Part shown: in pieces, positions 1,027-30,711 of the stretch | Layout: every line of letters begins with the position of its first letter | Numbering within the stretch: position 1 is the first letter of the stretch | IMG/VR virus record: IMGVR_UViG_3300000231_000001 | Span: 1-31,817 of that record | Length of the DNA stretch: 31,817 bases | Reading direction: 5' to 3' (one strand) | Source of the DNA: a virus | Made by a program: the position numbers and the translations under genes | Notes under the pieces: generated by a model | What the model was told of the DNA's origin: nothing | What the model saw: the letters and a program-made list of their open reading frames with translations, nothing else | Databases searched by the model: none

Positions 1027-1364
1027 TCGAAGGAAAGGTTTGGGGAAAGACTGTCTGTGTCGTCGAGACCGATTATTTCTCGATTCATTATCTGAGAATT
1101 CTCGCGGGGGGATTCTGCTCTGAGCACGTTCATCGCGCGAAGATGAATCGATTCTTCGTGATCAAAGGGCGGCTGGAGATCATGATTTGGCAGCCGAGCG
1201 GAGTGATTGACACAATCATTTTGAAAGAGGGCGAATCAACCGATGTCCCGGCTGGTGTTTTTCATCGATTCAAAGCCGTCGAAGAGACCGATTGCATCGA
1301 AATCTACCAAGTCTCGATCGATCGATGGGATATTATTCGACGATCGACGGGGGGAATAGATTGA
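1023..1364 (+). CDS. Cupin-domain protein
   Basis: 113 residues from an ATG overlapping the previous stop. Cupin motif 1 is visible as G30-x(4)-H35-x-H37 followed by a G at 49, with Asn42 where many cupins have the metal-binding Glu. Motif 2 is also visible (GESTDVPAGVFHRF, including P-x-G-x2-H). The single small beta-barrel suggests a sugar epimerase/isomerase-type or small-molecule-binding cupin. Between glycan genes, I infer modification of a sugar nucleotide or a glycan. Longer versions of this frame begin upstream at 906 but would read through the zinc-ribbon gene, so I reject them. Confidence 0.7.
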   Translation: MIEGKVWGKTVCVVETDYFSIHYLRILAGGFCSEHVHRAKMNRFFVIKGRLEIMIWQPSGVIDTIILKEGESTDVPAGVFHRFKAVEETDCIEIYQVSIDRWDIIRRSTGGID

Positions 1365-2050: not shown

Positions 2051-2703
2051 ATCACGTTGATATAATCTGCGCGACCCGGGGGCGGTTGGCGAAATTGAGC
2101 CGGATGGTGAGATCGGTGCCTGGAACTGCGGCGCGATTGCCGATCAATATTGTTCTCTTCGTCGATGGCGACATGGCGTCATATCGTGAATTGATTCGGC
2201 GAGGATATAACCCGCATTATTCGCCGACGAGAATTGGTCAGACGGCAGCGAGAAATCTTCTCCTCGAAAAAACGACCGACGCCGTGATATACGCGGTCGA
2301 TGATATCTGTTTTGAGGCGGGGGCGATCGAAACGGCAATCAGAGAATTCCGGGCATTATTCCCTGATGATGATGGAGTGCTGGGGTTCACGCAGATCGGC
2401 AATCGATTCCACCCGACAGGAATCTCGCTCATCGGCTCCCTGTTCCTCAATCGATATCCGAACCGTCACCTTTTCTGCCCGAAATATGATCATTTCGCGT
2501 GCCAAGAGGTTCATTGGGCCGCCGTGAAGTTGGGGAAATTCGCGCTCTCTGAAAACGCGCGGCTCTATCATTTCCATCCCGATCATCATAGCGAAGAGAG
2601 AGATCAAACGCATCTCGATGCGCGGAAAAACAAAGCCCGTGACATGATGATAAAAGCGCAGAGAGAGAAAGCGGGTCTGATATGGGGAATCAATGACCGT
2701 TGA
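2047..2703 (+). CDS. Glycosyltransferase family 2-like protein
   Basis: 218 residues, ATGA-coupled to the gene before it. The N terminus (DIICATRGR) is the usual first strand of a GT-A family 2 domain, and a YAVDDICF segment (D85-D86) is the likely metal-binding acidic pair. An ARNLL motif precedes it, as in family 2 enzymes. It probably adds one sugar of the glycan made by this cassette. The C terminus is very basic and charged, and I see no membrane segment, so a soluble enzyme is likely. Confidence 0.65.
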   Translation: MNHVDIICATRGRLAKLSRMVRSVPGTAARLPINIVLFVDGDMASYRELIRRGYNPHYSPTRIGQTAARNLLLEKTTDAVIYAVDDICFEAGAIETAIREFRALFPDDDGVLGFTQIGNRFHPTGISLIGSLFLNRYPNRHLFCPKYDHFACQEVHWAAVKLGKFALSENARLYHFHPDHHSEERDQTHLDARKNKARDMMIKAQREKAGLIWGINDR

Positions 2704-3487
2704 ATTCATCGTTGAGACGTTCTTCGGCTATGACCGTCCAGGGCAATTTCTCTCGGAATCTTGGCTTATCGAGCGATTCGGGATATTCGAGCGATTCACG
2801 TATCGATCGCTCATGAATCAAAGTGATCGAGCGTTCAGAATCTTCGTTCAGATCGGCGACCGGAATGCGGAATTGATTCGATCATTCGCATGGCCGACTG
2901 AGATCGAGATCTGTGAAAAAAACGGAAGAAAGCAATATTCAGAGATTGATACGAGATTTATCTCGATCACGCGAATTGATTCGGATGATCTCTTTCATCG
3001 GGACGCGATCGCCGAGGTGAAGAGAAAATTCGGCGGTGCGGCAAACCGGAAAGTTCTTTGCTGGAAATCACGGCTCGTTTGGGACAGGGTGAACGGATAT
3101 CTGCTCCCTGATCATCCCCGCGTTTCATCGCCTTTTTTCACTCACATATTTCCGAAATCGATTTATCGCGATTGGGCGCGATTTCAAAAAGAGCATTTTC
3201 GATCGCATGGGCGGGATGGCGCTGGCGATCGGGAAGCGATCTCTCTCGATCGGAAAAAAGTCTGCGTGATCAAACATGGGTTGAATTGGTCGGTTTTGAA
3301 ACGCGGACAATCATGGCCCGTTCTGAGAACTGAAGCGGATTTCCGCGCCCACCTCGATAATCTCAGAATCAAGAATCCAGGGCTCCAGATGTGCCGGGAC
3401 CCGGAGGTGATCGCCAAGGTGCTTGACGCATTTGGTGTAGACCGAAGGGAGATTGCGGCATCGATGACTCAGGTGATCAATGGTTAA
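2693..3487 (+). CDS. Putative rhamnosyltransferase-type glycosyltransferase
   Basis: 264 residues. The pattern of an early FGYDRPGQFLSESWLIERFGIFERFT segment followed by ITRIDSDDLFHRDAI (D96-S-D98-D99) is that of the bacterial 'putative rhamnosyl transferase' family (PF11316), by recognition rather than by search. It overlaps its neighbours by 11 and 8 bases. If the family is right, the donor would be dTDP-rhamnose; no rhamnose synthesis genes are visible here, so the donor would have to come from the host. Confidence 0.6.
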   Translation: MTVEFIVETFFGYDRPGQFLSESWLIERFGIFERFTYRSLMNQSDRAFRIFVQIGDRNAELIRSFAWPTEIEICEKNGRKQYSEIDTRFISITRIDSDDLFHRDAIAEVKRKFGGAANRKVLCWKSRLVWDRVNGYLLPDHPRVSSPFFTHIFPKSIYRDWARFQKEHFRSHGRDGAGDREAISLDRKKVCVIKHGLNWSVLKRGQSWPVLRTEADFRAHLDNLRIKNPGLQMCRDPEVIAKVLDAFGVDRREIAASMTQVING

Positions 3488-4160
3488 TAAACAATCCGTC
3501 TCGGTTCTGATCACAAGCTATCGCCGCTACGCACGGCTCGATGACGTGATTGACGGTTGGCTGAGACAGCCGATCGAAAGCCTTTGGCTGATAGACGGCG
3601 GCGGGGGGTTCCGATCAAAAAGTCGCGACAGCCGATTGATCATCTTCAATTTGCCGATCGATCTTGGGACGAAGATGGACATGGCGTTCGGCCTCTTGAC
3701 GGATGGCGATCTGATCTGTCTCGCCGATGATGACCTGATTGCCGCGCCCGGATTCTTGGGCGATCTTGAACGGGTGAGAGCGGAGAAAGGCGGATTTGTC
3801 GGCGTGATAGGGCGCACGTTTCATGGGCCGATTTATTGGGGAAAGACCCAATTTTTCTCTTCTCGGAAGATCGCGAAGCCTGTCAGAGTGGGATTCGTCG
3901 GTGTCGTGATTCTCTTCGAGCGATCTTTTCTCGGATTCGATCTTCGCTATCAGCCGAGAAATTGTGATGATCTCTGGCTCCAGATGAAGATTCACCCTGA
4001 TGTGGTGAAACATGTCGCGCCGACGACGCGATATGAAAATATCCTCGAAGCGTCCGACGTGACGGCGATGTATAAAAACCCGAAGCTCAGACTCGAAAGA
4101 GAACTTTTTTACAGCCATCATTACCTGAAAACTTATGCGCCTTCGGGGAGAATTTATTGA
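3480..4160 (+). CDS. Glycosyltransferase family 2-like protein
   Basis: 226 residues. The N-terminal strand SVLITSYRR and the acidic triplet in LADDDL (D83-D85) are standard GT-A family 2 landmarks. It is a second or third family 2 member in the cassette but is not a close copy of the gene at 2047, so the two probably act at different steps. Its stop overlaps the TTG start of the methyltransferase that follows. Confidence 0.65.
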   Translation: MVNKQSVSVLITSYRRYARLDDVIDGWLRQPIESLWLIDGGGGFRSKSRDSRLIIFNLPIDLGTKMDMAFGLLTDGDLICLADDDLIAAPGFLGDLERVRAEKGGFVGVIGRTFHGPIYWGKTQFFSSRKIAKPVRVGFVGVVILFERSFLGFDLRYQPRNCDDLWLQMKIHPDVVKHVAPTTRYENILEASDVTAMYKNPKLRLERELFYSHHYLKTYAPSGRIY

Positions 4161-4702
4161 ACGCCGAACAATATCTGAAATCACATTGGATTCGCAATAA
4201 AGTCTGGACGCACCTTGAATGGGAGAAGCATCAGCGGCGGTTGGAACAGTGCGCTGATTTTCTCGGCTCGGGGAAAAGATTCATCGACATTGGTTGCGCT
4301 TGTGGGCATTCAACGGCGATCATGAAGAAGTTTCATCCGGGCGAGTGGCACGGTGCTGACTTCGCCGATTGCGCGATCGACATCGCAAAAGACCAATTCC
4401 CGGAGATCGAATTTCACGCAGTAGCCGGGGTAGAGGCGCTTTGCCATTTGGGCACCTTCGACGGGGTCGTCTGCTCGGAAGTGATCGAGCATGTCCATGA
4501 AGACCGCCGATTCATTGAAAATGTTATGGCTGTGTGCCGCGGATCGGCGGTCTTCACGACTCCGACTCGGAAGGTTTCCGACCCCGGACATCTGAGAGTT
4601 TATAGAATAGATTCATTGAGGGAATTATTCAAGGATTTTGAGTTCGAGATTCATCAGATCGAGCCGTTTTTTTATGTGATCGTGCGAGAGAGAGAGAGAT
4701 GA
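4157..4702 (+). CDS. Class I SAM-dependent methyltransferase
   Basis: 181 residues. The start is TTG overlapping the previous stop (TTGA), with GGGGAGAA just upstream. Motif I is FIDIGCACGHS (D44-G50), followed by an acidic turn after WHGADF and a VVCSEVIEHVHED motif IV-like strand, typical of methyltransferase type 11/23 folds. The substrate is unknown. Context suggests methylation of a sugar hydroxyl or carboxyl on the glycan made by the neighbouring transferases. Confidence 0.75.
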   Translation: MNAEQYLKSHWIRNKVWTHLEWEKHQRRLEQCADFLGSGKRFIDIGCACGHSTAIMKKFHPGEWHGADFADCAIDIAKDQFPEIEFHAVAGVEALCHLGTFDGVVCSEVIEHVHEDRRFIENVMAVCRGSAVFTTPTRKVSDPGHLRVYRIDSLRELFKDFEFEIHQIEPFFYVIVRERER

Positions 4703-5424
4703 TCACGACGATTTATCACACGCGAATGAATCTCGATCGCCGAGATGTGCTGAGACTCAAGACGAAGCGCGTGTATGAGAAGACCGAATCCGATCTTGTT
4801 TCATCGATAATTTGTCCAGGTGATGTGTTCGTCGATATCGGCGCACATATCGGTTATTATTCGATGATCGCCGGACGGTTCGTTGGTTCTCTAGGCGTCG
4901 TGTTCGCGTTCGAGCCTGAAGCGGAGAATTTCTCTATTCTCGCAGAGAACGTGAAACTGAATGAATTCAAAAACGTATTCCCGATCAATATGGCGATCTC
5001 AGACCGATCGGGCGTCGGCAATCTTTTTCTCAACGATCAATCATCGGGAGATCATCGAATTTACCCGAGCGGCAAGAGATCACGCATGGTCTGCCATATT
5101 ACGACGATCGATGAGTTTTTTGATAAAATCGAGAAGATTTCTTTTATCAAGATCGATGTTCAAGGCGCGGAATGGCGCGCGCTGGCCGGTGCCGTGAAAA
5201 CTCTCCCTCGCGTTCCTCTCATGATGGTCGAATTTTACCCGCCTGGAATAATCGAATCGGGCGGCGACCCGAACAGATATCTCGATCAGTTGAGAGAATC
5301 CGGATTCAGAATCGGTGAGATCGATCGATACGGGCGCGGGATTCTTCCGTTCTCGAATCAAGAATTGATCGCGAAATATCCGGTCAAAATCGGGAGACAT
5401 TGTAATCTCTGGTGTGCGAGATGA
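4699..5424 (+). CDS. FkbM-family methyltransferase
   Basis: 241 residues, ATGA-coupled. It has the FkbM hallmarks: DVFVDIGAHIGYYS (residues 42-55), an FAFEPE acidic motif near 73-78, and IKIDVQGAEW near 150-159. FkbM enzymes (PF05050) methylate oxygen atoms and are common in glycan and polysaccharide loci. With three methyltransferases in a row, the final glycan is probably O-methylated at more than one place, or only one of them acts on it. Confidence 0.8.
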   Translation: MITTIYHTRMNLDRRDVLRLKTKRVYEKTESDLVSSIICPGDVFVDIGAHIGYYSMIAGRFVGSLGVVFAFEPEAENFSILAENVKLNEFKNVFPINMAISDRSGVGNLFLNDQSSGDHRIYPSGKRSRMVCHITTIDEFFDKIEKISFIKIDVQGAEWRALAGAVKTLPRVPLMMVEFYPPGIIESGGDPNRYLDQLRESGFRIGEIDRYGRGILPFSNQELIAKYPVKIGRHCNLWCAR

Positions 5425-6323
5425 AAGAGAAAATCTCCGTCGATCTCAAGGCCCGATACACGACGGGTCTCGGCAAAGCAGGATTGAATTGTGCTCAATA
5501 TGCGCGGGTCTTCAACTGTCGGATGATCGGCACGTTTAATCTGATCACACATCTGAATATCTTCGACTTTAAGCCATGCCGCCTTGATCTTGGCGGCTAC
5601 CATCAGTTTTATCTCGTCAAATTGAATGATCAATTCTACGGGTGGGTGATCAAGTGGAAGGATTCGCGACAGTCGCCGAATCACCTGGAGATCATCTCGA
5701 AAGAGAGATTCCCTGATCACATTAAACGGACTTCCGTGAAGGTCGAAGTGTTCGAGCGATGGGACGATCAAAAGATCAGACGATGGGCTGAGGGGATTCA
5801 CTTCTTTCAGACGTTCGAGTGGACACCGGATAACCGCAAAGCGGCGAATTCTTCGCTGGTATGGGATACGATCGCTCATGTGGAATTCAAAAATACCCGG
5901 GTGCTCGACATCGGTTGTAATTTCGGCTACCATTCGTTCAGAGCTTCAAGAGAAGGAGCGAGGGTGATCGGTTTCGATAAAAACGTGAATGTCTTACCTG
6001 TCGCCCGTCTGATCAATGACAATATCGAAATGCAGGATGTCGGATTCACTGATCGATTTCCGGCCGGGGAGCGATTCGATCATATTTTTTATTTCTCCGT
6101 TCAGCATCAGTTTGATGCCGAATATGAGACACTCAGACGATCAATCAATCAGTTGAAGGCGATCGCTGACGGTTCGATCTTCATCGAATTGATCGTGCCG
6201 CCATTGAGGGGGGAACTTTCTGAAACGCAGATCGATCGGATTCTTGGCTCGAAGGGCCTTTTGAAATATCGCCATAAGGTAAGGCGAGAGAGAAAAATCT
6301 ACGAGATAAAACCGGGAGGTTAA
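5421..6323 (+). CDS. SAM-dependent methyltransferase with N-terminal extension
   Basis: 300 residues from an ATG overlapping the previous stop. A GTG at 5412 would add three residues but is less likely. The first 150 residues show no motif I recognise. The methyltransferase core starts near 160 (RVLDIGCNFGYHS), followed by an acidic turn (VIGFDKN). The layout, with a core late in the chain and an FFQTFEW segment before it, resembles tRNA uridine-34 methyltransferase-like and lipid/sugar methyltransferases, but context favours glycan modification. It is the last gene of the cassette; the next gene has its own strong ribosome-binding site. Confidence 0.65.
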   Translation: MKEKISVDLKARYTTGLGKAGLNCAQYARVFNCRMIGTFNLITHLNIFDFKPCRLDLGGYHQFYLVKLNDQFYGWVIKWKDSRQSPNHLEIISKERFPDHIKRTSVKVEVFERWDDQKIRRWAEGIHFFQTFEWTPDNRKAANSSLVWDTIAHVEFKNTRVLDIGCNFGYHSFRASREGARVIGFDKNVNVLPVARLINDNIEMQDVGFTDRFPAGERFDHIFYFSVQHQFDAEYETLRRSINQLKAIADGSIFIELIVPPLRGELSETQIDRILGSKGLLKYRHKVRRERKIYEIKPGG

Positions 6324-9708: not shown

Positions 9709-9938
9709 CGGCGATCGCTCGCTCTTTCCCGGGTCTTTTTACTTACGCCGATCTGATCGCTCTCGACCTCAGGGATTTTAATTTCTGGCTCCGGGAGGCT
9801 CAAAAAAAGAACTATGAAGATCAGATCAAGAGGGCGATGATCTCTCGTTCTGCAATGGTCAAAGATGAAGACTTCAGATCATTTGTCGGGGCTATGAGAT
9901 GGAATCTTCGCCTCATGGAGCTTGAGGAGAAAAAATAA
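9382..9938 (+). CDS. Tail assembly chaperone G-T (-1 frameshift product)
   Basis: The -1 frame is open without interruption from the slippery site at 9675-9681 to the TAA at 9936-9938. The shift joins 9382-9681 to 9681-9938 and gives about 185 residues. The added domain runs RSFPGLFTYADLIAL through to ELEEKK and has no start of its own with a good ribosome-binding site. G/G-T pairs made by -1 frameshifting just upstream of the tape measure are conserved in long-tailed phages; in lambda the T part recruits the tail-tube subunit. Its stop overlaps the ATG of the tape measure gene. Confidence 0.8.
9675..9733 (+). promoter_or_regulatory. -1 ribosomal frameshift signal (slippery site plus stem)
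   Basis: The heptamer A-AAA-AAC is in the correct reading register of gene G (codons GAA AAA AAC). After a 9-base spacer, bases 9691-9703 (CCTGGGGAAGAGC) pair with 9721-9733 (GCTCTTTCCCGGG): 13 pairs including two G-U. The 17-base loop contains the zero-frame stop. Spacing and stem length are textbook for -1 programmed frameshifting. Confidence 0.8.
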
Positions 9939-12706
9939 TGGCCGGAGCGGGTGCAGGTTTTCTGGCTGGCTCGATTATCGCGAAGATGGTCTTGGACAAG
10001 ACCGGATGGAATCAGGCGGTTCAATCGGTCGGAAAAGACGCAAAAGCCCTTGGCTCGATGACCGAGCAACAGGCGAGAAATATTCGCGCGATGGGATTTG
10101 CGATGACAGCGGTGGGGGCCATTATAACCGCCACTATGACGAGTTTCGTCAAAGCCGCGCAGACTCAGATGGCTGCAGAGCGTCAGTTGAACGCCGTTCT
10201 GGAATCAACGAAGGGTGTGGCTGGGCTCACGGCAGAAGAGGTCAAAAAGCTCGCCGCTTCTATGCAATCCGTGACCACTTACGGCGATGAGGCCATTCTC
10301 GTCGGTCAGAATCTTCTTCTCACGTTCACGAATATCGGGAAAGACGTCTTCCCCGCCGCGACTGAGACGATGCTCGATATGTCGACCGCGCTCGGTCAAG
10401 ACCTTAAATCTTCGGCGATTCAGTTGGGGAAAGCGCTTCAGGACCCTGTTCTCGGCGTCACGGCTCTCAGGCGCGTCGGCGTGAATTTCAACGATGAACA
10501 ACGGGAGATCATAAAGACTCTCGTAGAATCCGGCCGCACGCTTGAAGCGCAGAAGATAATTCTCGCGGAATTGGCGACTGAGTTCGGCGGCTCTGCCCGT
10601 GCGGCGGCTCTTGAGTTCGGCGGCCAAATGAAACAATTGAAAAACGAAGTCGGCGATGTCAAAGAGGAATTGGGCCGTATGCTGATTCCTATTTTGCAAT
10701 CAATCGTCGGCGAGATAAAGCCGATCGTGATCTCTTTGAAAGAATGGATAAAAGAGCATCCAGGCTTGGCGAAAAACATCACGATCGTCGTTGCCGCACT
10801 CGGCGCACTGATGACCATTCTCGGGCCGCTTCTCATCATGCTCCCCGGACTTACGATCGCTTTCAATATGGCGAAAATTGCGATGGGCGCATCGCTAGGG
10901 CCAATGGCTGCCGTGACGGCGGGCGCTCTCGCGCTTGGGGCGGGAATCAATTATCTGATCAATCGATATAAAGCGAAGCAAGATGCGGAGATGGCCGCGA
11001 TCGTAAAGAATTCAGGCCCGATCGCTGAAGCGATGGAACTCCGAAAGCGATTGATCAAAGAGCAGATCGTCTCTCATGAAGAATGGCGAGAAATCTTCAA
11101 TAAACATGGGCGAGATTATTCAGCCACCCTCAATGCGATCGCCACAGATCCGTCTTACGCAAAATTACGCGGTGAACTTGAAGAAATCAGAAAAGAACAT
11201 GAAAAGACAAGCGGCGCATCGAAGGGCCTCAAGGAATCTTTTCCGGAATTAAGAGAGGAGATCGAGCGCTATGCGAAAGAACTGAATAACGCGAAAACCG
11301 CGGAAAAAGAATTCAGCGATTTTCTCTCCGAGATCGGGCTCAAAACGATCGCCGAGAAGCAGAGCCGAATCTCTGATCTTCTTGGCTATCAGGCGCGGCT
11401 CGATCAGATGTTGAAAGACAACAAGATCACTCTCGAAGACTATAAAATGGCGATCGCCGCGATCTCGAAAGAATTCTTTGAGTTCGGCGAGAAAATCGAA
11501 ACAGCCGTGCTTCCCGCCCGTGATCTTCTTGGTGTTCTCGATCTCGCTCCTTCGACATTCGAGGATGTCTCCTATGGTGTCCGTGATCTGGAAAAAGAGA
11601 TCGATTATCTTTCCGATCAGTTGAAAGTCTCTCCGGCGACTATTCGTATGGTGATCTTTAATCTCCAGGCTCTTCAGCTTCAACTCGCTGGAATTCATGT
11701 GCCGACCTTGGATTTTTCACAGTTGACGAGAGAAGCGGAGACGACCGTTGAGACGGCAAAAGGTTACTTCGACGGCCTCTACAACGACATCGCCTCCGGT
11801 TGGGCGAATACGATCCAGCAATGGGTTGAAGGGTCGATGACATTCCGTGATCTCTGGAAATCACTATGGGAAGATATAAAAAATTCCTTTTTCCGTGTTA
11901 TAGGTGAGATGGCTGCAAAATGGGCGATTGATCTTGTTAAGGGGCTTGTGAATCCAGCGCTGGACGCTGGTAAATCCATCACTTCGACACTCGGCTCTGC
12001 TGTCAAAGGAATCGGTACCGGAATAAAAGGACTTTTAACAGGTCTTGGCGAAGGGATAGCCGGGATGGCAAAGGCCATAGCGGGAGCGGCCAAGGAAATC
12101 TTGATCGCTGCCGGAGTTGCGCTTGCCATTTTTGCCGGATTCAAAATCGTAGAGGGAATCTTGGGAAAAGTATTCGGCGGCGGGGGGAAAGAATCAAGCG
12201 ATGTCACTTATTGGCTCAAACTTATTCAGACGAATACACAGAACCTTGAGAACATGGCCCTCAACGATCATAAAGGGATGCTCCATGAGATCATGATTAC
12301 CGGATGGGCGAGAAATGAACTTCTCGGTCACATTTATGATCTCACATCGAGTGATCTTAATAATCTCGGTGACAGAATAGTCGATCGACTCGGTGATATC
12401 ATCGAAGCGATTGAAAATATCGCGGGCGCTCAATCAGGGGCCATCGTGACGAAGCCCTCTTTTCTGAAGGTCGCCGAAAAATCGCCTGAAGCGATCATTC
12501 CTCTCGCCGATCTTCCGCGCATCGTGACGCCGAATCCCTCCTCTTCGCCGATCGTCAATCTCAATAATTATGTCTCAATCGATGGGACGATGATCACCGA
12601 CCGAGATTATACGCGGCAGAGGTTCATTCCTGAACTTATCGAAGCCCTGAACGCAAATGCGGATGGATTGAAATCAAAATTGCAGACGGCACTCGGGGTG
12701 GCCTGA
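9938..12706 (+). CDS. Tail tape measure protein
   Basis: 922 residues. The N terminus is helical with a hydrophobic MGFAMTAVGAIITATM segment, followed by the conserved tape-measure block LLLTFTNIGKDVFPAATETMLDMSTALGQDL and QLGKALQDPVLGVTALRRVGV (about 125-180). Hydrophobic segments follow near 280-345 and 680-750. The C terminus has the usual SFLKVAEKSPEAIIPL motif. At about 1.5 angstroms per residue the predicted tail is near 140 nm. No peptidase or transglycosylase domain is evident. The start overlaps the stop of the G-T frame. Confidence 0.9.
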   Translation: MAGAGAGFLAGSIIAKMVLDKTGWNQAVQSVGKDAKALGSMTEQQARNIRAMGFAMTAVGAIITATMTSFVKAAQTQMAAERQLNAVLESTKGVAGLTAEEVKKLAASMQSVTTYGDEAILVGQNLLLTFTNIGKDVFPAATETMLDMSTALGQDLKSSAIQLGKALQDPVLGVTALRRVGVNFNDEQREIIKTLVESGRTLEAQKIILAELATEFGGSARAAALEFGGQMKQLKNEVGDVKEELGRMLIPILQSIVGEIKPIVISLKEWIKEHPGLAKNITIVVAALGALMTILGPLLIMLPGLTIAFNMAKIAMGASLGPMAAVTAGALALGAGINYLINRYKAKQDAEMAAIVKNSGPIAEAMELRKRLIKEQIVSHEEWREIFNKHGRDYSATLNAIATDPSYAKLRGELEEIRKEHEKTSGASKGLKESFPELREEIERYAKELNNAKTAEKEFSDFLSEIGLKTIAEKQSRISDLLGYQARLDQMLKDNKITLEDYKMAIAAISKEFFEFGEKIETAVLPARDLLGVLDLAPSTFEDVSYGVRDLEKEIDYLSDQLKVSPATIRMVIFNLQALQLQLAGIHVPTLDFSQLTREAETTVETAKGYFDGLYNDIASGWANTIQQWVEGSMTFRDLWKSLWEDIKNSFFRVIGEMAAKWAIDLVKGLVNPALDAGKSITSTLGSAVKGIGTGIKGLLTGLGEGIAGMAKAIAGAAKEILIAAGVALAIFAGFKIVEGILGKVFGGGGKESSDVTYWLKLIQTNTQNLENMALNDHKGMLHEIMITGWARNELLGHIYDLTSSDLNNLGDRIVDRLGDIIEAIENIAGAQSGAIVTKPSFLKVAEKSPEAIIPLADLPRIVTPNPSSSPIVNLNNYVSIDGTMITDRDYTRQRFIPELIEALNANADGLKSKLQTALGVA

Positions 12707-12707
12707 T

Positions 12708-13544
12708 ATGAGCATCTACATCGCAACCGTTAATTATCTCGATGACGCCTCCTTTTGTTGTGTCTCTTCGGAAGACACCCTTTACATCGCGGAGAATCTT
12801 TATAATGCGCGGCCGTCAAAGCCCTTTCGTTTTACGGGGAACGGAGCAATCGGAGCGCCCGAATGGATTTGCATCCAATTCGCCGCGAGTCAGAGAATCA
12901 CGCTTGTTGGAATTTTCAATCATAATTTGACCGATCTCGGGGTGGCGGGAGACTCATTGATTCTCAAGGGATGTGATGACCCTTGTGAAGATTCAGGGGC
13001 TTGTGATTGGGACGGTAGCGGTGTCTATCCAATCGACATGGAACCTCGTCTTCTCGCAGTTTGGAATGATCTATATCAAATTTTGGATGAAAGTTACCTC
13101 AGTTGGCGAGTGGAATTCATCGATCAAAGCAATCCCTTCGCGATCGAAATAGGCGAACTTTTTTTATCAGAATACGAAGAGATCACGAACGCTCATCTTC
13201 AACCCGGAAGGGAAGAAAGCCCGATTCTTTTTCGTCGTAGAACCGATACTGATTACGGTCAGCATTGGTCGAAATCTCTCGCTTATGCCCAAAAACTGAA
13301 TATCAAGATCAAGAACATAAACGACCCCGCTCAAGTTGATCAGCTGCAGAGAATTATACTCGAAATTCATGAGGCTGAGGGGAAATGCGTGATAATCCCG
13401 AACTCTAGATTCAAATTTGCTTATTATGCTTATCTCGAAAATGAAGCGAATTTCACCGCTCAAATCACGCGCGGAACGACTTGCGAGTTGAAGGAATGGA
13501 CACTTCAATTCCGAACCCTGACGAAAGGAATCGCGCTACTTTGA
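12708..13544 (+). CDS. Putative distal tail protein
   Basis: 278 residues directly after the tape measure, the usual place for a distal tail protein (Dit). It is beta-rich. The segment between about 45 and 75 (GAPEWICIQFAASQRITLVGIFNHN) looks like a jelly-roll/discoidin-like strand pattern, and a Cys cluster (CDDPCEDSGACDW) lies near residues 89-101. That cluster may bind metal or form disulfides. The assignment is by position and size; I see no diagnostic motif. Confidence 0.5.
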   Translation: MSIYIATVNYLDDASFCCVSSEDTLYIAENLYNARPSKPFRFTGNGAIGAPEWICIQFAASQRITLVGIFNHNLTDLGVAGDSLILKGCDDPCEDSGACDWDGSGVYPIDMEPRLLAVWNDLYQILDESYLSWRVEFIDQSNPFAIEIGELFLSEYEEITNAHLQPGREESPILFRRRTDTDYGQHWSKSLAYAQKLNIKIKNINDPAQVDQLQRIILEIHEAEGKCVIIPNSRFKFAYYAYLENEANFTAQITRGTTCELKEWTLQFRTLTKGIALL

Positions 13545-14548
13545 ATATTGCCGAAGAGATCAAGAAGCTCAATGATGATATTGCTCTTCTCAATGCCCTA
13601 CTCATGGAGGCCAGGCGATCGGGCGGCGGGGGCGGGGGCCCGGGGGCAACGACGTTTCTTGACCTGACGGATACTCCGGCAAGTTATGTGGCTCAGGCCG
13701 GAAAGACTATTCGGGTGAAAGCCGCAGAAAATGGGCTTGAGTTTATCGATCGAATCACGACTTTTCTAGGGCTCACCGATACTCCGGCAAGTTATGTCGG
13801 CCAGGCCGGACTGTATTGCCGAGTAAATCCCGGAGCGAACGCAATCATATTCTCGGACGCCTCAGCCATCGACGCTGATATGGTCGACGGCTATCACGCC
13901 GAGGATTTTCTGTTCAAGTTTTACAACAAGAAATTCTGCGGGATTTTGCCTTATTATTCGGCGACGTTCTCCGCGATGGGCTGCGGTTTTTCAGTAAGCC
14001 TGTTGTTGGCATCATCCGTCTGGGATGATTCGACATGGACGCGCTGGGCGACGAACAACGCCGTGAACGATTTTCGGTTTATTCGGTCGTCGCAGGTCGT
14101 GTGCCATCGCCAGGGCGATTATGACGCGCAATGGGTGATAAAGACCGACGCCGACATCGCGAACATGCGGATATGGTGTGACCTGTGTTCGCAGAATCAC
14201 ACGGCGACCATCAACAATCTTTATCATTTCGCCGGGTTCTCCTACGACACCGCCGTGTCGGGGAATTGGTATTATCGGACGCAGAACGGGAGTGGCGCAG
14301 GGGGAATCACGACGGGAAGTCTGGCCGTGGCCGTGGCCGCATCGACGGTTTATTATCTTCGGGCTGTATCTCGATATGCAGACGGCGTGATCGACTTCTA
14401 CATCAACGGCACTCTCCGAGCCACGGTCGCCGCGACTCTGCCGGGTGCTCAGACGGGACTCATTGCTCATGTTATGTCCGTTACGTTGGCAGCCGTCTCG
14501 AAATACATTAATTTCGGAAGTTTTCTGGTCGAGTGGAACGGGCAGTAA
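13541..14548 (+). CDS. Fibre-like tail protein, first of a tandem pair
   Basis: 335 residues. I place the start at TTG 13541, overlapping the previous stop, because from there the N terminus (NIAEEIKKLNDDIALLNALL) aligns residue by residue with that of the next gene; the ATG at 13496 would add an extension its paralogue lacks. Order: a coiled-coil helix (1-25), a poly-Gly linker, two 36-residue repeats with LTDTPASYV, a VDGYHAEDFL motif, then a beta-rich C-terminal domain ending in a lectin-like strand (VIDFYINGTLRATV). This suggests a trimeric fibre or receptor-binding protein with a carbohydrate-binding tip. Confidence 0.6.
   Translation: MNIAEEIKKLNDDIALLNALLMEARRSGGGGGGPGATTFLDLTDTPASYVAQAGKTIRVKAAENGLEFIDRITTFLGLTDTPASYVGQAGLYCRVNPGANAIIFSDASAIDADMVDGYHAEDFLFKFYNKKFCGILPYYSATFSAMGCGFSVSLLLASSVWDDSTWTRWATNNAVNDFRFIRSSQVVCHRQGDYDAQWVIKTDADIANMRIWCDLCSQNHTATINNLYHFAGFSYDTAVSGNWYYRTQNGSGAGGITTGSLAVAVAASTVYYLRAVSRYADGVIDFYINGTLRATVAATLPGAQTGLIAHVMSVTLAAVSKYINFGSFLVEWNGQ
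13649..13864 (+). repeat. Two 108-base coding repeats in the fibre gene
   Basis: Two adjacent 36-residue units share TTFL-x-LTDTPASYV-x-QAG and a following RV stretch. Twenty bases are identical (starting at 13670 and at 13778, spaced exactly 108). A third, more diverged copy begins near 14655 in the next gene, followed by a weaker fourth. They are probably shaft repeats that change fibre length. Confidence 0.75.
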
Positions 14549-15552
14549 TGAACGCGAGTGAACAGGTGATCATGCTCCGCGGGAGAGTGGCTCAACTTAA
14601 TTCTCTTTTAATCCAGCTTCGCCGGGAAGGGGGAGGAGGGGGTGGCGGGACGTTTATCGGCCTGACGGATACCCCGGCCTCATACGTCGGTCAGGCGGCG
14701 CGCGACATCCGGGTCAATGCAGGGGAAAATGCCCTGGAGTTCGTTGACAGGATTGATATGTTCGCCGATCTCTCTGATGGCCCGGGTGTTTTGGTTGGTC
14801 ACGCGGGCGATTTTCCCCGCGTCAACGTCGTTGAGAACGCGCTTGAATACGGGTTTGAGACGGCAGTTGACGCTGGTAAGGTTGATGGTTATGACGCCGA
14901 TGATTTTCTCCCGGAACTCCACCGAAAGCGATGGAGAGCGATCATCCCCTATTCTCCAGCGGGGATGGCGGGTTTTTTCGTTACCGGGTCAGGGAGTTGG
15001 GGCGGCGGCGGTTCCTTTCTATTCGAGGATACGACCTGGCAACGATTCGCGTCATCAGCCGTCGCTGGTCAGGGCGGTGATATCTTCTCCTCAAATCTTT
15101 TTTGTAGCGTCCGGCAGAATTTTATATTCCGAGCACTCATAAGGCCGCAATCAAACAATGACTGTCGCTTTTGGGTCGGGATGAGTTCTATCAGGATACG
15201 AAGCGCGCCGGCCTACAACACGGACAATCCGACCTGCGCTCAGGCGATATTCCGATATTCTCAAGCGATCGGGGCGAATTGGTATGCCTGCACCCGGGAT
15301 GGCGGGGTGCAGAACGCTCAGAACACGGGTGTGGCGTGCAACACGAACACGGTGTATGACATGATGATCGTCAGTGATTATGCCGCCGGCGAAATTGATT
15401 TTTACATCAACGGAGCCCTGATCGCGACCAGCAACGCCAATCTTCCGTCCTCGACAACCGGGCTCCTGATGCAAGTAGCGGTCATAACTATAGCGGGTGG
15501 TGCCGGAGTCCAGACAATCGACTTTTCCTATGAAATGACGGAGCACGATTAA
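14548..15552 (+). CDS. Fibre-like tail protein, second of a tandem pair
   Basis: 334 residues, beginning at the ATG that shares one base with the previous stop. It repeats the architecture of the gene before it: an N-terminal coiled coil (NASEQVIMLRGRVAQLNSLL), a Gly run, FIGLTDTPASYVGQA, VDGYDADDFL, and a C-terminal domain with EIDFYINGALIAT. The first 120 residues and the final 80 are clearly related. The middle (about 145-240) has diverged, as expected for a receptor-contacting part. Its stop overlaps the next ATG. Confidence 0.6.
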   Translation: MNASEQVIMLRGRVAQLNSLLIQLRREGGGGGGGTFIGLTDTPASYVGQAARDIRVNAGENALEFVDRIDMFADLSDGPGVLVGHAGDFPRVNVVENALEYGFETAVDAGKVDGYDADDFLPELHRKRWRAIIPYSPAGMAGFFVTGSGSWGGGGSFLFEDTTWQRFASSAVAGQGGDIFSSNLFCSVRQNFIFRALIRPQSNNDCRFWVGMSSIRIRSAPAYNTDNPTCAQAIFRYSQAIGANWYACTRDGGVQNAQNTGVACNTNTVYDMMIVSDYAAGEIDFYINGALIATSNANLPSSTTGLLMQVAVITIAGGAGVQTIDFSYEMTEHD

Positions 15553-18335
15553 TGGCAGTCCCTCATCGACGGTGGACTCAAATCCAGGCGAATAGGTATT
15601 ATGCTCAAGGTGCCGACACCGGGACTTTCCATTCAAAATCGCTTTGGGGCGTCTCTCATATCCCTGGTTGCCGAGCCGCTTGGACCTGCATCAGTCAAGG
15701 GCCAGCTGAGGCGAATGAATATCGCTCCGTGGTAAGAGGGGCCTATGATTGGGACTTCATGGACGGAGCCAACTACCCTATCAAGATGCATTTGGTGGGG
15801 CGCTATAAGCCGACTTTCGATCTGAAAACAAGAGAGAAGGTTCTTATCAATCTTTGGCAATTCGATGAGACCGATATTATCGATTATCTGGTTTCGACGG
15901 GACAAACCCCGGATGGAGTTCATGAGTGGGACGTCGTGGGTGGGAGCGACCAAAGTCCATGCACGAAGAAATCCGCAATCTGGATTCCCGATATAGAATT
16001 AACACCGAGTGATGAGCAGGGCGTTTGGTACACCTATGACCATTGGAGCTATTCAGACGCGGGGGCAAGCGGTCAGGTCACCTACACGATGATGCCGTAT
16101 GTTTTCAAGAACGGGTTTCTTGTCTACCTCTACGGTTTTTATGAGCAATCGACCGGCAATTGGAATAGGGTGACCACACAACTAGCGGCTGGAACATTCG
16201 GGGATTTAATTTTTCAATGGCAATATATCGACCTCTATTATCTTGACCCGGTCGTGAGTGCTTTGAGCCGATATAAATTTCGGACGGCGGGGGGAGAACC
16301 CCTTGTCTTAACAGGCGTAGGATTCAATAATAATGATATCGAGATTCGTGATCTAGGGCCTGACCCGGATGGAATTCCGGGGGGTGGGGGTTGGGAAGGG
16401 CTGGTCGGTCTTATTTATTTGGAAGGGTTGCAGGGTCAAGGAACAACGACCTTAAACCGAGCGCTAGGGGATTTCTCCGTTGATTCTGATACGCAGATCA
16501 CGATTGCGGCGATGCCTGCTCTGGTAGAGGGGACATATCAACTCCGATTACGAAAGGGCGGGACGGCTCTCGGCGATGTGGATGCTTACGCCGGAGATTG
16601 GAGAGCGGCCACTGATGGTTTGATGACAGAAGGCCCCCGTTTTATTATCTATGTGACAGACAAAAAAACCTCAAAAAATCCGATCATCACATCAAAATGG
16701 CGATGGAAAGGCGCGACCTACATTTACCGCTATTATGCCCCGATCGACACCCGCGCAACTGAGACATTTTGGGACGGCAAGATTTTATCAATGAGCGGCA
16801 TCCGGCGCGGGACGAATGATTCGACAGGCGCGCCGATCTTCCCTGATTTTACGGTTTCTTTGGCGAACGCTGATTTGGAATTTTCAAAACTTCTCGCCCA
16901 ATATATTCTCAAAAATCAGTATGTTGAATTTTTTATCGGTTGGCAAGGGGAACCGGAAGCATGGATGCAGGCGTTATTTCGCGGAGTGGTGGTCGATCAC
17001 AACAACCCAAGTTCGGTGTTCGAGGTTAAACTCCGTGATGTCTTGGCTCGATACTTCAATCAGCGTGTCCCGACAGAGATCTGTTCATTGGAAGAATATC
17101 CGAACATAAAACCGGAGCATATCGGTCGCCTCAAACCGGGAGCTTTGGGGCGTTGTTCACACACGGAAGGCGATGCGCCCGGAGCAATCGAAGCCGTTTA
17201 TATTGATCAGACGACTTACCAATATCTTGCAAGCTGGGCTTCTCTCTCTTCTATTATCGAAGTTTTCGCGGATGGTGCGCTCATCGACCCAGCAGATTAT
17301 GCCGTCACGTATGGCGATTCAGGGGAGACTTTGATCACGTTTACGTCAGATCAAGAATCAGCGAAAATAACATTCAACTGTTGTGGCTTCATGTATGATC
17401 TCTGGAATAGTATCGGTTCTGATGGCGGTTTTGTGGAGAATCCGGCTTGGCTTCTATTATTTTTCTTTGCATTTATCGTCGGTGTGCCGGAAGCGGAACT
17501 CGATCTCGTCTCATTTTTTGATCTATCTGAACTCTTTGAAGAGATGGACCTCGCGGCCGATTCAGCGATGATGATATTTCAAGAGGCCCGACAACCGCTT
17601 GAAATATTGGAGGAATTTTGTTTCTCATTCGGGATAAAGTGCTGGTCAACGGCGGATGGGAAAATAAAAGTTGGGCGGAAAGATGTCTCTGACTATGCGA
17701 CCGATCTTTTGATTTTTGAGCAGATCGATTTACTCGAAGAAGCGGACAAATCCTTCAATTTCAATGAACAGGTGAATAGTATTAAATCGCCCTACGGCTT
17801 CATCCCCACCGCGAACGCTTATCTTGGTGTTGTCGAGAATGACCGACCCGCTTCTATTTCAGACTTCGAACAATCAGTTGAAGAACGATCTCTCTTTGCT
17901 CTGCCGAACTGCACGAACGTCGATTTTGCTTATACTCGAACCGCCGAAGAATTATTGAAGCGCGGTTATGGCAATCAAAAAATCAATATCCGACTGCCGA
18001 TAGAGTGGATATTCCTGCTTGATGTCTTCGACAACTTCCGCTTTCAAGACCCGTATGGGATAAATGTCCTTGGGCTTGGTGATCAGGCTCGCTATTTTTA
18101 CGCAGAATCTACTGATGTTGACCCCCTACAATTTGCTTTGAATGTTGAAGGAATCGACCTACAATATCTGCTTCGGATGTATTGTGTTTTGGGCGATGAG
18201 AATGTGCTGGCCGACAATTGGGCGACAGCATCCGAATTCGATCGCCTTTATTCTTATCTTGCCGATGAGACCAATGATCATTTTGCGGATGGTCAGCCGG
18301 GAAAAATGAAGATGAACGAAACGACGGATATATAG
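15552..18335 (+). CDS. Large hub/baseplate-like tail protein with IPT/TIG-like domain
   Basis: 927 residues. The first 230 are beta-rich with many Trp and Tyr. An IPT/TIG-like immunoglobulin fold lies at about 230-340 (TAGGEPLVLTGVGFNNND, then TQITIAAMPALVEGTYQLRLRKGG). The second half (about 385-900) has hub-like features, including a repeated use of SLANADLEFSKLL and VEGIDLQYLLRM strands and an LEILEEFCFSFG helix similar to tail-associated hub proteins that sit at the tail tip. Place and size support a tail tip protein. No enzyme motif is seen. Confidence 0.55.
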   Translation: MAVPHRRWTQIQANRYYAQGADTGTFHSKSLWGVSHIPGCRAAWTCISQGPAEANEYRSVVRGAYDWDFMDGANYPIKMHLVGRYKPTFDLKTREKVLINLWQFDETDIIDYLVSTGQTPDGVHEWDVVGGSDQSPCTKKSAIWIPDIELTPSDEQGVWYTYDHWSYSDAGASGQVTYTMMPYVFKNGFLVYLYGFYEQSTGNWNRVTTQLAAGTFGDLIFQWQYIDLYYLDPVVSALSRYKFRTAGGEPLVLTGVGFNNNDIEIRDLGPDPDGIPGGGGWEGLVGLIYLEGLQGQGTTTLNRALGDFSVDSDTQITIAAMPALVEGTYQLRLRKGGTALGDVDAYAGDWRAATDGLMTEGPRFIIYVTDKKTSKNPIITSKWRWKGATYIYRYYAPIDTRATETFWDGKILSMSGIRRGTNDSTGAPIFPDFTVSLANADLEFSKLLAQYILKNQYVEFFIGWQGEPEAWMQALFRGVVVDHNNPSSVFEVKLRDVLARYFNQRVPTEICSLEEYPNIKPEHIGRLKPGALGRCSHTEGDAPGAIEAVYIDQTTYQYLASWASLSSIIEVFADGALIDPADYAVTYGDSGETLITFTSDQESAKITFNCCGFMYDLWNSIGSDGGFVENPAWLLLFFFAFIVGVPEAELDLVSFFDLSELFEEMDLAADSAMMIFQEARQPLEILEEFCFSFGIKCWSTADGKIKVGRKDVSDYATDLLIFEQIDLLEEADKSFNFNEQVNSIKSPYGFIPTANAYLGVVENDRPASISDFEQSVEERSLFALPNCTNVDFAYTRTAEELLKRGYGNQKINIRLPIEWIFLLDVFDNFRFQDPYGINVLGLGDQARYFYAESTDVDPLQFALNVEGIDLQYLLRMYCVLGDENVLADNWATASEFDRLYSYLADETNDHFADGQPGKMKMNETTDI

Positions 18336-18345
18336 GAGAATTAAC

Positions 18346-18798
18346 ATGGCGATGATCGACGGGGATGATGCGATCAGTGGACAGGTTGAATCGTTCCAAC
18401 AGCATAATCGAATCAAGAATCATTGGCGACAGAGTGACCCACGGGCGAACCTATCAAATCCTCAAAACGGGATGATCGTCAGCGATTCAGACGACGATAA
18501 ACTCTATCACAAGATCAGCGGAGCGGGTTTGGGAAGTGGGGCACCGGATTATGATGAAATTCTCCAGGCATTGACTAGCTCAGACATCAGTCCCGTCTTC
18601 GATGGCGTCATTTTGAATATTGAGAGTTCTGATGTGAGCGACCCCCCGACTGAAGCGGAATTAAACGCAATATGGCCGACCGCCGTAGCGGGCTTTACAG
18701 GCTATGTGCACGATTCATCATCCGGGGGAAAGTTGTATCAATGTATTTTTGATGGGTTAAATTGGTGGACGTTCACGGGGGCCTTGGCCGGAAGTTGA
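18346..18798 (+). CDS. Small tail-associated protein, unknown
   Basis: 150 residues with its own ribosome-binding site (AGGAGA, 7 bases before ATG). Acidic, with no Cys pairs or membrane segment. The C terminus (VAGFTGYVHDSSSGGKLYQCIFDGLNWWTFTGAL) looks like a small beta domain of the kind found on phage tail tips or as a chitin-binding-like Trp-rich patch. It is the last gene before a hairpin, so it probably ends the structural transcription unit. Function unknown. Confidence 0.5.
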   Translation: MAMIDGDDAISGQVESFQQHNRIKNHWRQSDPRANLSNPQNGMIVSDSDDDKLYHKISGAGLGSGAPDYDEILQALTSSDISPVFDGVILNIESSDVSDPPTEAELNAIWPTAVAGFTGYVHDSSSGGKLYQCIFDGLNWWTFTGALAGS

Positions 18799-18902: not shown

Positions 18903-20306
18903 ATGGCAATCAACGTTAAACGATGGATTTGCGAGACGTGGGGAAAGACGTGGGGTTCGTGTGATGCTTATTGGGATACGGTTGAAGTCTGCCGATCATC
19001 GGGCAGGAGGCCGAACCGATATTGCCCGGGAAAAGAGAGTCGGAGATTAAAAAAGAAAGATGTGCCGACAGAGATCTGCGAGATTCATCAGCCACCGCCG
19101 CCGCCACCCCCGCCGAAATTCAAAATCTGTCCTGAAACGGGATGGGCTTGGTCGCCGTGGTGTCCTGAATATTGTGAAGGTTCTGTCGAGCCGCGCCTCG
19201 TCTGCCGAAAACATCGCCCTTCGAGAAAAGCCCCTGTCACGTTTGTCCTTTTTTCTGTTGATATCGCTTGTCGAAAAGATTTCACCGATGGTCAGATTGA
19301 TCAATTTTCTACGGATGTCGGCGGGGCCGGCGTCGATCTCGTAAGGATTTTTCCGGGAGCAGAAGAGAAAGAGGGGATGCGCGTTGCGCCATTCAATCGA
19401 GTTTCAAGTGATATGCCGTATGATTGTTATTCGATCAATCCGGAGTGGCGATTGCTCATGGAGAGATTTCAGAGATCGCTCGCTCGATGCGGCGTCGGTA
19501 TTCTTTTCGATCTTCTCCCGTCTCAACTCTGCCGACCTTCTTATCAATGGTGCTGGTGGCGAGAAGGCGGGAATACGAACAACCTTGATTCCGTCTATGA
19601 CACTCGGCCTCACGCGATCGAATATTGGTTCTGGTGGATTGATCAAGCGATTGAAATCTTCGGCCTCGAGGGGAATGAATTCATGTTCGGGAATGAACTT
19701 CAAGGGCCGGGGGATTTCGGTCCGGGTAATGTTGATCTCGTCACGTTGAAAGAATGGGCGAGAACGTGGGCAATCCCGCTCGGCGATCACCTCAAATCAC
19801 GGGGCGTCAATCTTCCGATTTGGCTCTGTGGGGAGCCTTATGCGGGGACAGGTCACAAGATCGCCAACCGATTGATCGAAGAGAACGGCTGGCCGGAGCG
19901 CGACCTGATGATTCAGCTTCATGGCGTCAATCTCTGGGAGCCGTTCGAGAAGTGGTACAAGCCGGGGACGGCGGAGAGAAAATACAGCGCTCGGAAATTC
20001 TATTGTCTCTCCGATGACGGTTCGGAATTCTCAAACGAGAATAAAATCCCTGGAGAGAAAAAAGGAAAGTGTTCTCTCAGAGTGGACGGCTCGACGAAAT
20101 GTTCAGCGAATCAATTTTGGCGCATCGAGACGGTCAAGAGAATCATTCAGATTGGAGATTTCCGGTTGGCCGCGGTTGAATGGATGCCGCAGGAATTCAA
20201 AGGGGCCGATTGGCAGATCGAGAATCTCGATCGGGAAACGTCGATCGATGTTTATTGGCGGTGCGCCGAATCTCTTTGGGGCATAGATATCAGACGTTCG
20301 ATCTGA
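18903..20306 (+). CDS. Glycoside hydrolase-like tail protein with PBP-type cell-wall motifs
   Basis: 467 residues. The N-terminal 110 residues hold two Cys-rich motifs separated by a run of eight prolines. The first, EVCRSSGRRPNRYCP followed by DVPTEICEIH, closely follows the C-terminal motif of class A penicillin-binding proteins (VC-x2-SG ... YCP ... C-x2-H). The second (ICPETG ... CRKH) is a looser copy. From about 110 on, the strand order VDLVRIFPG, ILFDLLPSQ, MFGNELQGPG, MIQLHGVN and AAVEWMPQEF fits a TIM-barrel of clan GH-A; E265 after N264 is the likely acid/base and E425 a candidate nucleophile. I infer a virion-bound glycan hydrolase. No signal peptide. Confidence 0.6.
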   Translation: MAINVKRWICETWGKTWGSCDAYWDTVEVCRSSGRRPNRYCPGKESRRLKKKDVPTEICEIHQPPPPPPPPKFKICPETGWAWSPWCPEYCEGSVEPRLVCRKHRPSRKAPVTFVLFSVDIACRKDFTDGQIDQFSTDVGGAGVDLVRIFPGAEEKEGMRVAPFNRVSSDMPYDCYSINPEWRLLMERFQRSLARCGVGILFDLLPSQLCRPSYQWCWWREGGNTNNLDSVYDTRPHAIEYWFWWIDQAIEIFGLEGNEFMFGNELQGPGDFGPGNVDLVTLKEWARTWAIPLGDHLKSRGVNLPIWLCGEPYAGTGHKIANRLIEENGWPERDLMIQLHGVNLWEPFEKWYKPGTAERKYSARKFYCLSDDGSEFSNENKIPGEKKGKCSLRVDGSTKCSANQFWRIETVKRIIQIGDFRLAAVEWMPQEFKGADWQIENLDRETSIDVYWRCAESLWGIDIRRSI

Positions 20307-28319: not shown

Positions 28320-28639
28320 AAGAGGCGGTCAAACAACAGCTTTTTGAATCGATCGAGCGCCTCCGGATTTACCTCTCGAATCCGAAAAGGGAAAATAATT
28401 ATCTTCAAGAAGAGTTCGCGCTCAGAGAAAGAGTGGTCAGATCAGAAGACACCGCTCATGCGATTTTTGAGAAAAACGGGGGAAAATGGGCGCTCTTTTT
28501 TTTCGTCTATCATGTCGGACAATGGTATAATTTCCCACCAACCTGCGGTCATCTGGTAGGAATGAAGGGACTTGACGACACCTACCAATATGTGGAACAA
28601 CATAACACGAACATCGGGACGACCCAAAATGAATGCTGA
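28316..28639 (+). CDS. Small protein of unknown function
   Basis: 107 residues from an ATG overlapping the stop of the initiator gene. N-terminal helix (VKQQLFESIERLRIYL), then a charged stretch and a hydrophobic strand (KWALFFFVYHVGQWYN). Overlaps the sigma-like gene by 11 bases, so the three genes are likely cotranslated. No family recognised. Confidence 0.5.
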   Translation: MKEAVKQQLFESIERLRIYLSNPKRENNYLQEEFALRERVVRSEDTAHAIFEKNGGKWALFFFVYHVGQWYNFPPTCGHLVGMKGLDDTYQYVEQHNTNIGTTQNEC

Positions 28640-29126
28640 ACAGGCGATCAGAGAATTCGAGCCCATGATCAGGGCGACAATCAATTCGAGGCTCGGCGCA
28701 GACAATGATCGGGAAGATTGTCTTCAGGATGTTCTTCTCTCTCTCTATCTGAATCGGGAAAAATTCAGAGGCGAGAGTTCGATCAAGACATTCGTCTATT
28801 CGATCACGAAACACAAGATCGCCGACTATCTGAGGGCGAAATATCGGCAGAGACGGATTATCAATCAAGAAATCGAGAAAATTTTGAAGACGGTCACGGA
28901 ATCAGAGAACACAGAGGCCGTCAAAATAATTCACCTGACCCGGAGAGAACGGCAGGTATTAAAATCTCTTTCGATCGGAATGACGAACGCAGAGATCGCC
29001 GCTGAATTGAAAATATCCATTCATACGGTGCGGTCGCACTTGAAAAACCTTAACGTAAAATTCAAATCGAATAGCCGGATAAAATTGGCGATATTCATGA
29101 ATCAATTTTTCAAGGAGGTTTTATGA
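28629..29126 (+). CDS. Sigma-factor-like regulator with LuxR-type HTH
   Basis: 165 residues from the ATG at 28629. Residues about 10-80 follow sigma-70 region 2 (REDCLQDVLLSLYLNREKF, then SIKTFVYSITKHKIADYLR). The C-terminal LTRRERQVLKSLSIGMTNAEIAAELKISIHTVRSHLKN is a LuxR/GerE-like helix-turn-helix, as in small ECF-like and phage sigma factors. It could redirect RNA polymerase to late phage promoters. No anti-sigma gene is visible beside it. Confidence 0.7.
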   Translation: MNAEQAIREFEPMIRATINSRLGADNDREDCLQDVLLSLYLNREKFRGESSIKTFVYSITKHKIADYLRAKYRQRRIINQEIEKILKTVTESENTEAVKIIHLTRRERQVLKSLSIGMTNAEIAAELKISIHTVRSHLKNLNVKFKSNSRIKLAIFMNQFFKEVL

Positions 29127-29999: not shown

Positions 30000-30179
30000 A
30001 TGGAGATTCGGATTAAATTGATTGCGAACGGATGGGCGGTCACTTTCTGTCGGGGCAGCACTCATTCGATCTATTATCGGGCATCGCTGAAGGAGATCTG
30101 CGAAAAGATCATGGCTTTGACCGATCATATCGTGAATGAGAAATATCGGACGGGTGAGGTGGTCGGTGAAGGCGCGTGA
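30000..30179 (+). CDS. 59-residue protein of unknown function
   Basis: MEIRIKLIANGWAVTFCRGS then a helix (SLKEICEKIMALTDHIVNEKY). The start has GAAGGAGGAG, among the best ribosome-binding sites in this half of the window. The beta-beta-alpha pattern is small and compact. It overlaps the RlpA-like gene by 14 bases. No family recognised. Confidence 0.55.
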   Translation: MEIRIKLIANGWAVTFCRGSTHSIYYRASLKEICEKIMALTDHIVNEKYRTGEVVGEGA

Positions 30180-30711
30180 TGCACTGATCATCGGAATTGA
30201 AATCGGGTTAATCATTGGTCTGATCGGCGGCGCTCAGTTCGCGATTCTCAAGGTCAATCAATCAGTCGATTTCATGATCTCAGAGGTTGAAAAAATCAGA
30301 GAAGAAACTTCATCAGGTTTGATCAGGTTCAATGGTCGGGTTGATGCGTTGATTACTGATCTCACGTCAATGTGGTCGATCAAGGGTGATGAATTCCACG
30401 GCGTTGCATCCTGGTACGGGGCAGATTTTGAGGGTAAGTTCACGGCGTCAGGCGAAATATTCTCTCTCTCGGCTCTGACCGCTGCTCACAGATCTCTGCC
30501 ATTCGGCACTCTTTGCAAAGTTGAAAATATGAGATCAGGCCATTCAGTGATCGTCAAGATCAACGACAGAGGGCCGTTCGTCGACGATCGGATGATCGAC
30601 CTATCGCCGGAAGCGGCCTCGAGAATAGGTCTTCTTCGAGATGGGCTCTATCCGGTCAAAATCACGATTCTGAAGCAAGGAGCCCGCCGACGAGTGAATC
30701 GAGAAAAATGA
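30166..30711 (+). CDS. RlpA-like double-psi beta-barrel protein, membrane-anchored
   Basis: 181 residues from GTG 30166, with GAGGT upstream; an ATG at 30136 is the alternative. An N-terminal membrane helix (LIIGIEIGLIIGLIGGAQFAI) is followed by a helical stalk and a complete RlpA barrel: HGVASWYGADFEGKFTASGE, TAAHRSLPFGTLCKV, VIVKINDRGPF and MIDLSPEAASRIG. RlpA proteins in some bacteria are lytic transglycosylases that cut denuded glycan strands, with the Asp of NDRGPF conserved. In a phage it is a candidate lysis enzyme, anchored to the inner membrane. Confidence 0.75.
   Translation: MKARDALIIGIEIGLIIGLIGGAQFAILKVNQSVDFMISEVEKIREETSSGLIRFNGRVDALITDLTSMWSIKGDEFHGVASWYGADFEGKFTASGEIFSLSALTAAHRSLPFGTLCKVENMRSGHSVIVKINDRGPFVDDRMIDLSPEAASRIGLLRDGLYPVKITILKQGARRRVNREK

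Follow-up and report, generated by a model that had tools for sequence, protein, structure and literature searches.

Class A PBP-tail-type Cys modules joined to GH-A-like barrels in related phages and prophages

The gene, its layout and its relatives

The window, by which we mean the whole stretch of DNA analysed here, is an IMG/VR virus contig of 31817 bases that encodes the 467-aa protein P0001. The coordinates of its ORF, the two Cys motif copies, the eight prolines (residues 64-71) and the NEL motif (residues 264-266) had been described in an earlier reading made from the sequence alone, and all agreed with the translation when this was checked. The features of the gene and of the tail module before it are as follows.

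9938-12706, + strand: tape measure protein (PHROGs, E = 7e-42)
15552-18335, + strand: 927-aa tail-module protein, a syntenic anchor
18346-18798, + strand: conserved small tail-module protein just upstream of P0001 (NRIKNHWR...SDSDDDKLYH), which led to the ortholog
18903-20306, + strand: P0001, 467 aa, consisting of a Cys module, a Pro linker, a second Cys module and a GH-A-like barrel
18903-18977, + strand: N-terminal segment, residues 1-25 (INVKRWICETWGKTWGSCDAYWD), conserved with the ortholog L065
18978-19091, + strand: copy 1 of the PBP-tail-type Cys module, residues 26-63 (C30, C41, C59, H62), identified with the PBP-tail HMM
19092-19115, + strand: eight prolines, residues 64-71
19119-19220, + strand: copy 2 of the PBP-tail-type Cys module, residues 73-106 (C76, C87, C101, H104), identified with the HMM and kept in L065
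19230-20303, + strand: predicted GH-A-like (beta/alpha)8 barrel, residues 110-467 (AlphaFold2 model and VIA-align)
19692-19697, + strand: N264-E265, the presumed acid/base, at the end of strand 4 (invariant in 17/17)
19920-19922, + strand: H340 on strand 6 (aligned His in 17/17)
20010-20021, + strand: S370-D371-D372-G373 at the end of strand 7 (D372-G373 invariant, D371 variable)
20178-20180, + strand: E426, the final residue of strand 8 (aligned Glu in 13/17)

The P0001 gene stands directly after conserved tail genes, both in the window and in its relatives, and a barrel gene of the same kind ends the tail module in many of the relatives found by synteny. Single-sequence searches with P0001 returned no convincing match in Pfam, PHROGs, NCBIfam or PDB sequences, nor did tblastn in phage and plasmid records, and back-translated P0001 peptides matched nothing in viral and genome contigs. 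The relatives P0002 and P0003 received no family name either, and the barrel family matched no Pfam, PHROG or NCBIfam family. Relatives were reached only via synteny, the tape measure protein leading to L003, the 927-aa protein to L009-L017 and the 150-aa upstream protein to L061-L075, while querying with A3, A4 and L013, themselves relatives, added no record to those already known. The full-length ortholog (L065:4880-6286) is 40% identical to P0001 over its whole length (E = 1e-109), occupies the same gene place and has both Cys modules.

Several other genes were observed around the barrel genes. Two adjacent tail proteins in the window (13481-15552) share a repeated FxxLTDTPASYVGQAG segment that also occurs in PHROG 11660 tail proteins. 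Positions 29-6323, just before the head-tail connector genes, are filled by genes that resemble glycosyltransferases, rhamnosyltransferases and methyltransferases (FkbM and Methyltransf_23 among them), and a comparable sugar/methyltransferase block occupies the same place in L003 (891-6320); the block looks like a cargo site inside the structural genes. A small ORF at 28572-29126 combines sigma-70 region 2 with a LuxR-type (GerE) helix-turn-helix; ORFs of similar appearance stand at the end of contig L023 and, in L003 and L010, immediately ahead of the barrel gene. The product of 30136-30711, with a DPBB/RlpA-type domain (PF03330, E = 3e-26) after an N-terminal hydrophobic segment, is a candidate lysis enzyme. 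Adjoining the barrel relative of L103 is an M15-peptidase-like gene (L103:6692-7156, weak Pfam match), and in the barrel relative L104:6173-7522 the barrel is preceded by a TM-like segment and by a weak match to N_BRCA1_IG (Ig-like, E = 1e-4). L100, L101, L146 and L148 come from one bacterial genome and represent two related prophage-like regions, each with a signal-bearing motif-barrel gene.

The barrel and its presumed active site

Residues 104-467 were modelled with AlphaFold2 from an alignment of only seven sequences, which limited its depth since the genome-search loci were left out, and the model showed alternating strands and helices (pLDDT 58.7, pTM 0.59). The full-length protein with a mixed alignment reached pLDDT 36; alignments A10 and A11, in which rows were misaligned at key motifs, were not used for folding. 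The best VIA-align match of the barrel model was the GH5 mannanase 3pzn (Z 12.9, 261 residues, rmsd 3.9), and the best 50 rows were almost all GH5/GH1 barrels (Z 11.5-12.9). Sugar epimerases, the top Foldseek matches (rmsd about 7-9), were rejected, as VIA re-alignment of the same candidates put GH-A barrels first. The best match of the family profile among PDB sequences was again a GH5 mannanase, aligned through N-E at a weak score (E = 0.12). We therefore describe the P0001 barrel as GH-A-like with modest confidence, on the strength of a predicted structure.

In an automatic alignment of 17 members, some rows of which have inserts at strand 7, residues N264, E265, H340, D372 and G373 were invariant, and R148 and E426 were kept in 14/17 and 13/17, respectively. 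Most family members are less than 20% identical to P0001. The NEL motif, previously proposed to hold the acid/base of a GH-A-type barrel, thus sits at the end of strand 4 with its N-E pair invariant in 17 relatives. The outcome for a paired nucleophile, on which the sequence-only reading had staked the glycosidase assignment, was divided: the canonical position of the strand-7 Glu is occupied by the variable D371 (D, S, G, Q, A, E or T among the members, with Glu in 1/17), whereas D372 next to it is invariant. E375 of the SDDGSE segment was considered as the nucleophile and rejected, because L065 has SDDGGG. The proposed fold thus stands in the moderate-confidence model and fold search (pLDDT 58.7; Z 12.9), but the canonical nucleophile is not kept and, since its position is variable, the family is GH-A-like but not a standard member of GH-A. 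To our knowledge, a layout of E265 with a displaced D372, or with the acid alone, is not known from GH-A barrels. Lytic transglycosylases need one acid only.

Cys modules shared with class A PBP tails and their recurrent fusion

An HMM built only from 27 bacterial PBP tails identified P0001 among 2020 ORFs with E = 2.3e-16; the profile used to collect the PBP set included the window copies, though the sequences in that set do not depend on them. Copy 1 scored 40.9 bits (i-E 1e-11) and copy 2 18.8 bits. P0001 was followed in rank by L065, L076, L013 and L010, nothing else among the 2020 ORFs was notable, and the top ORF outside the barrel family reached 9.4 bits. Residues 1-110 scored 63.5 bits, compared to 11.7 bits for the best of 5000 shuffles. 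Chance likeness of the P0001 motif to PBP tails is therefore excluded, given the E-value of the PBP-only HMM and the far lower scores of the shuffles. An earlier HMM from a narrow PBP set, mostly of the D..TG type, was too weak (E = 0.18), and the broader set was decisive. These scores bear out the initial assignment of copy 1 to the class A PBP C-terminal type of Cys motif. The description of copy 2 as degenerate holds in the window but not in L065, where the two copies score about equally (20.3 and 19.9 bits).

The C, C, C and H of the motif are invariant across nine phage copies, and all six motif Cys and both motif His of P0001 are present in L065. Cys residues are kept at the aligned L065 positions of C10, C20, C30, C41, C59, C76, C87 and C101, and other Cys mostly differ. 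When the nine-copy profile was run in six frames on 297 genomes from the phylum of an Aminicenantes genome, 168 of them matched at E up to 0.1. The strongest non-barrel matches were, as listed, mostly ORFs of ~750-1000 aa, with four confirmed as PBPs by Pfam/NCBIfam. The motif sits behind a KTG box in 27 of the fetched loci. All four of the motif-bearing proteins that were scanned are class A PBPs according to Pfam/NCBIfam, and in these the motif lies C-terminal of the transpeptidase domain (before BiPBP_C in the PBP1C type) and outside every Pfam model. The literature searched offered no function for this PBP tail motif.

The same combination was found in other phages and prophages. L108, detected by the motif profile alone, encodes a prophage protein that combines a lipoprotein signal and three copies of the motif with the same barrel, and the profile also recovered L100 and L101, both in one genome and each ending a tail module with the gene order of the window. 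The motif is N-terminal and accompanied by a hydrophobic or lipoprotein signal in L013, L076, L100 and L101, and lies on the C-terminal side of the barrel in L010. A tree of the 17 barrels rejected the motif bearers as one clade (p-AU about 2e-44), and across its well-supported branches the motif state must have changed at least 3 times (gains or losses), although its deep branches are uncertain because the barrels are very divergent. With the motif gained or lost at least three times on this tree, the fusion recurs, and as judged from sequence comparison the joining of PBP-tail module and barrel is real and recurrent in related phages and prophages. The searches made yielded no description of it. 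The same comparisons show that P0001 is a member of a family, as yet without a name, whose GH-A-like barrels evolve fast and are encoded in the tail modules of phages and prophages, in some cases within Acidobacteriota/Aminicenantes genomes. They also show that this family has been joined repeatedly to one to three class A PBP tail modules, at either end.

Possible roles and comparison with known systems

The N termini of the family differ. L013, L076, L101 and L108 have lipoprotein-type signals, L100 has a hydrophobic one and L104 a TM-like segment; because hydrophobic or lipoprotein N termini precede the motif in five relatives, the motif there lies outside the cytoplasm, as it does in PBPs. 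P0001 and L065 have no signal peptide or lipobox, and no signal was seen in L010, L003, L011, L015, L014 or L079. As P0001 has no such signal, its Cys modules may never enter the periplasm.

Our preferred reading, held tentatively and at a little under an even chance on the basis of sequence and model, is that P0001 is an envelope-glycan enzyme, probably acting on peptidoglycan and tethered by a borrowed PBP-tail module. The barrel would bind and cleave a host envelope glycan, most probably peptidoglycan, and E265 would be the acid/base. As the canonical nucleophile is not kept, catalysis might use the displaced D372 or follow an acid-only route (substrate-assisted or like that of lytic transglycosylases). 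The Cys module would bind metal through four metal-ligand-like residues (C/D, C, C, H), and the modules would hold the barrel near the extracytoplasmic partner or surface used by PBP tails. Such tethering would take place in the envelope of the producing cell for relatives with a lipoprotein signal and, for the window protein without a signal, within the tail or after lysis. The earlier suggestion that the motif targets the barrel to peptidoglycan or assembly sites would fit the recurrence of the fusion and the lipoprotein signals that relatives carry, though not the absence of a signal peptide from the window protein. The M15-peptidase-like gene beside the L103 barrel gene counts for the preferred reading. 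Cwp19 of C. difficile, a GH-like barrel that acts as a peptidoglycan lytic transglycosylase (PMC6016235), was among the structural matches of the barrel model (Z 11.7), tied with many enzymes that do not act on peptidoglycan. A more specific and distinctly unlikely version sees the PBP tail module as a metal-knuckle domain that can be transferred and that docks to a partner in peptidoglycan synthesis; phages would have captured it several times to place the barrel there, and the barrel would cleave peptidoglycan with E265 and the displaced D372 or with the acid alone.

The position of the barrel gene as the last of the tail module in many relatives would also suit an enzyme of the virion tail tip, or a depolymerase that destroys the receptor, with a capsular or surface glycan as its substrate; this is a possible if somewhat unlikely alternative. 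The Cys modules would then be structural knuckles that fix the protein to the tail, and they would resemble PBP tails only because a metal knuckle was reused. The eight signal-less proteins, the window protein among them, and the coiled-coil-like or Pro-rich N termini of L011, L014 and L015 are in line with such a role, but the lipoprotein-type, hydrophobic and TM-like N termini of six other relatives are ill-suited to a virion protein assembled in the cytoplasm.

Those same lipoprotein signals, together with the fact that a single genome has two such genes, both in prophage-like regions, would be expected of an envelope protein expressed from the prophage for lysogenic conversion or superinfection exclusion. 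A precedent exists in Ltp of phage TP-J34, a phage-encoded superinfection-exclusion lipoprotein (PMC3952083), to which a barrel would here be added. We regard this explanation as unlikely, since the gene is not part of a lysogeny module but lies behind the structural genes and is read in their direction, the copy in the window lacks a signal, and the invariant acids suggest catalysis. Least probable is a pseudo-glycosidase, a dead barrel that only binds a glycan or receptor, which would account for the non-conserved canonical nucleophile position and for the GH1-like receptor Klotho among the structural matches, but leaves N-E, His and D-G invariant in members mostly <20% identical to P0001, which is unusual for a dead site.

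Many bacterial class A PBPs end in the Cys module or carry it behind the transpeptidase domain. Its repeated fusion by phages to one enzyme fold offers a handle on its role, which therefore becomes testable outside the essential synthases. The family also presents a barrel whose active site is invariant yet non-canonical, and it hints at a way in which phages might reach the peptidoglycan machinery.

Among known systems, the phage-encoded envelope lipoprotein Ltp (PMC3952083) is comparable to the signal-bearing barrel relatives, but it has no barrel and its gene lies in the lysogeny module, whereas the window protein has no lipobox. Cwp19 (GHL10, PF02638; PMC6016235) resembles P0001 in combining a GH-like barrel, of similar fold according to the model, with cell-wall attachment modules; these are CWB2 modules in Cwp19 and PBP-type ones in P0001, and PF02638 had no match in any of 11 family members (Pfam, E up to 10). 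The GH5 endo-mannanases of clan GH-A (3pzn, 8d89) have in common with P0001 the modelled barrel fold, the Arg on strand 2, the N-E at the end of strand 4 and the His on strand 6, but P0001 has no canonical strand-7 Glu nucleophile, carrying instead an invariant Asp one residue later, and has no Pfam-level similarity to them. With class A PBPs (PBP1A-type and PBP1C; TIGR02074, TIGR02073), P0001 shares the C-terminal-tail module [CD]..[ST]G......C.......P...C..H; unlike them, it has no transglycosylase or transpeptidase domain (no Pfam/NCBIfam match), and in the phage fusions the module usually stands at the N terminus, sometimes in two or three copies.
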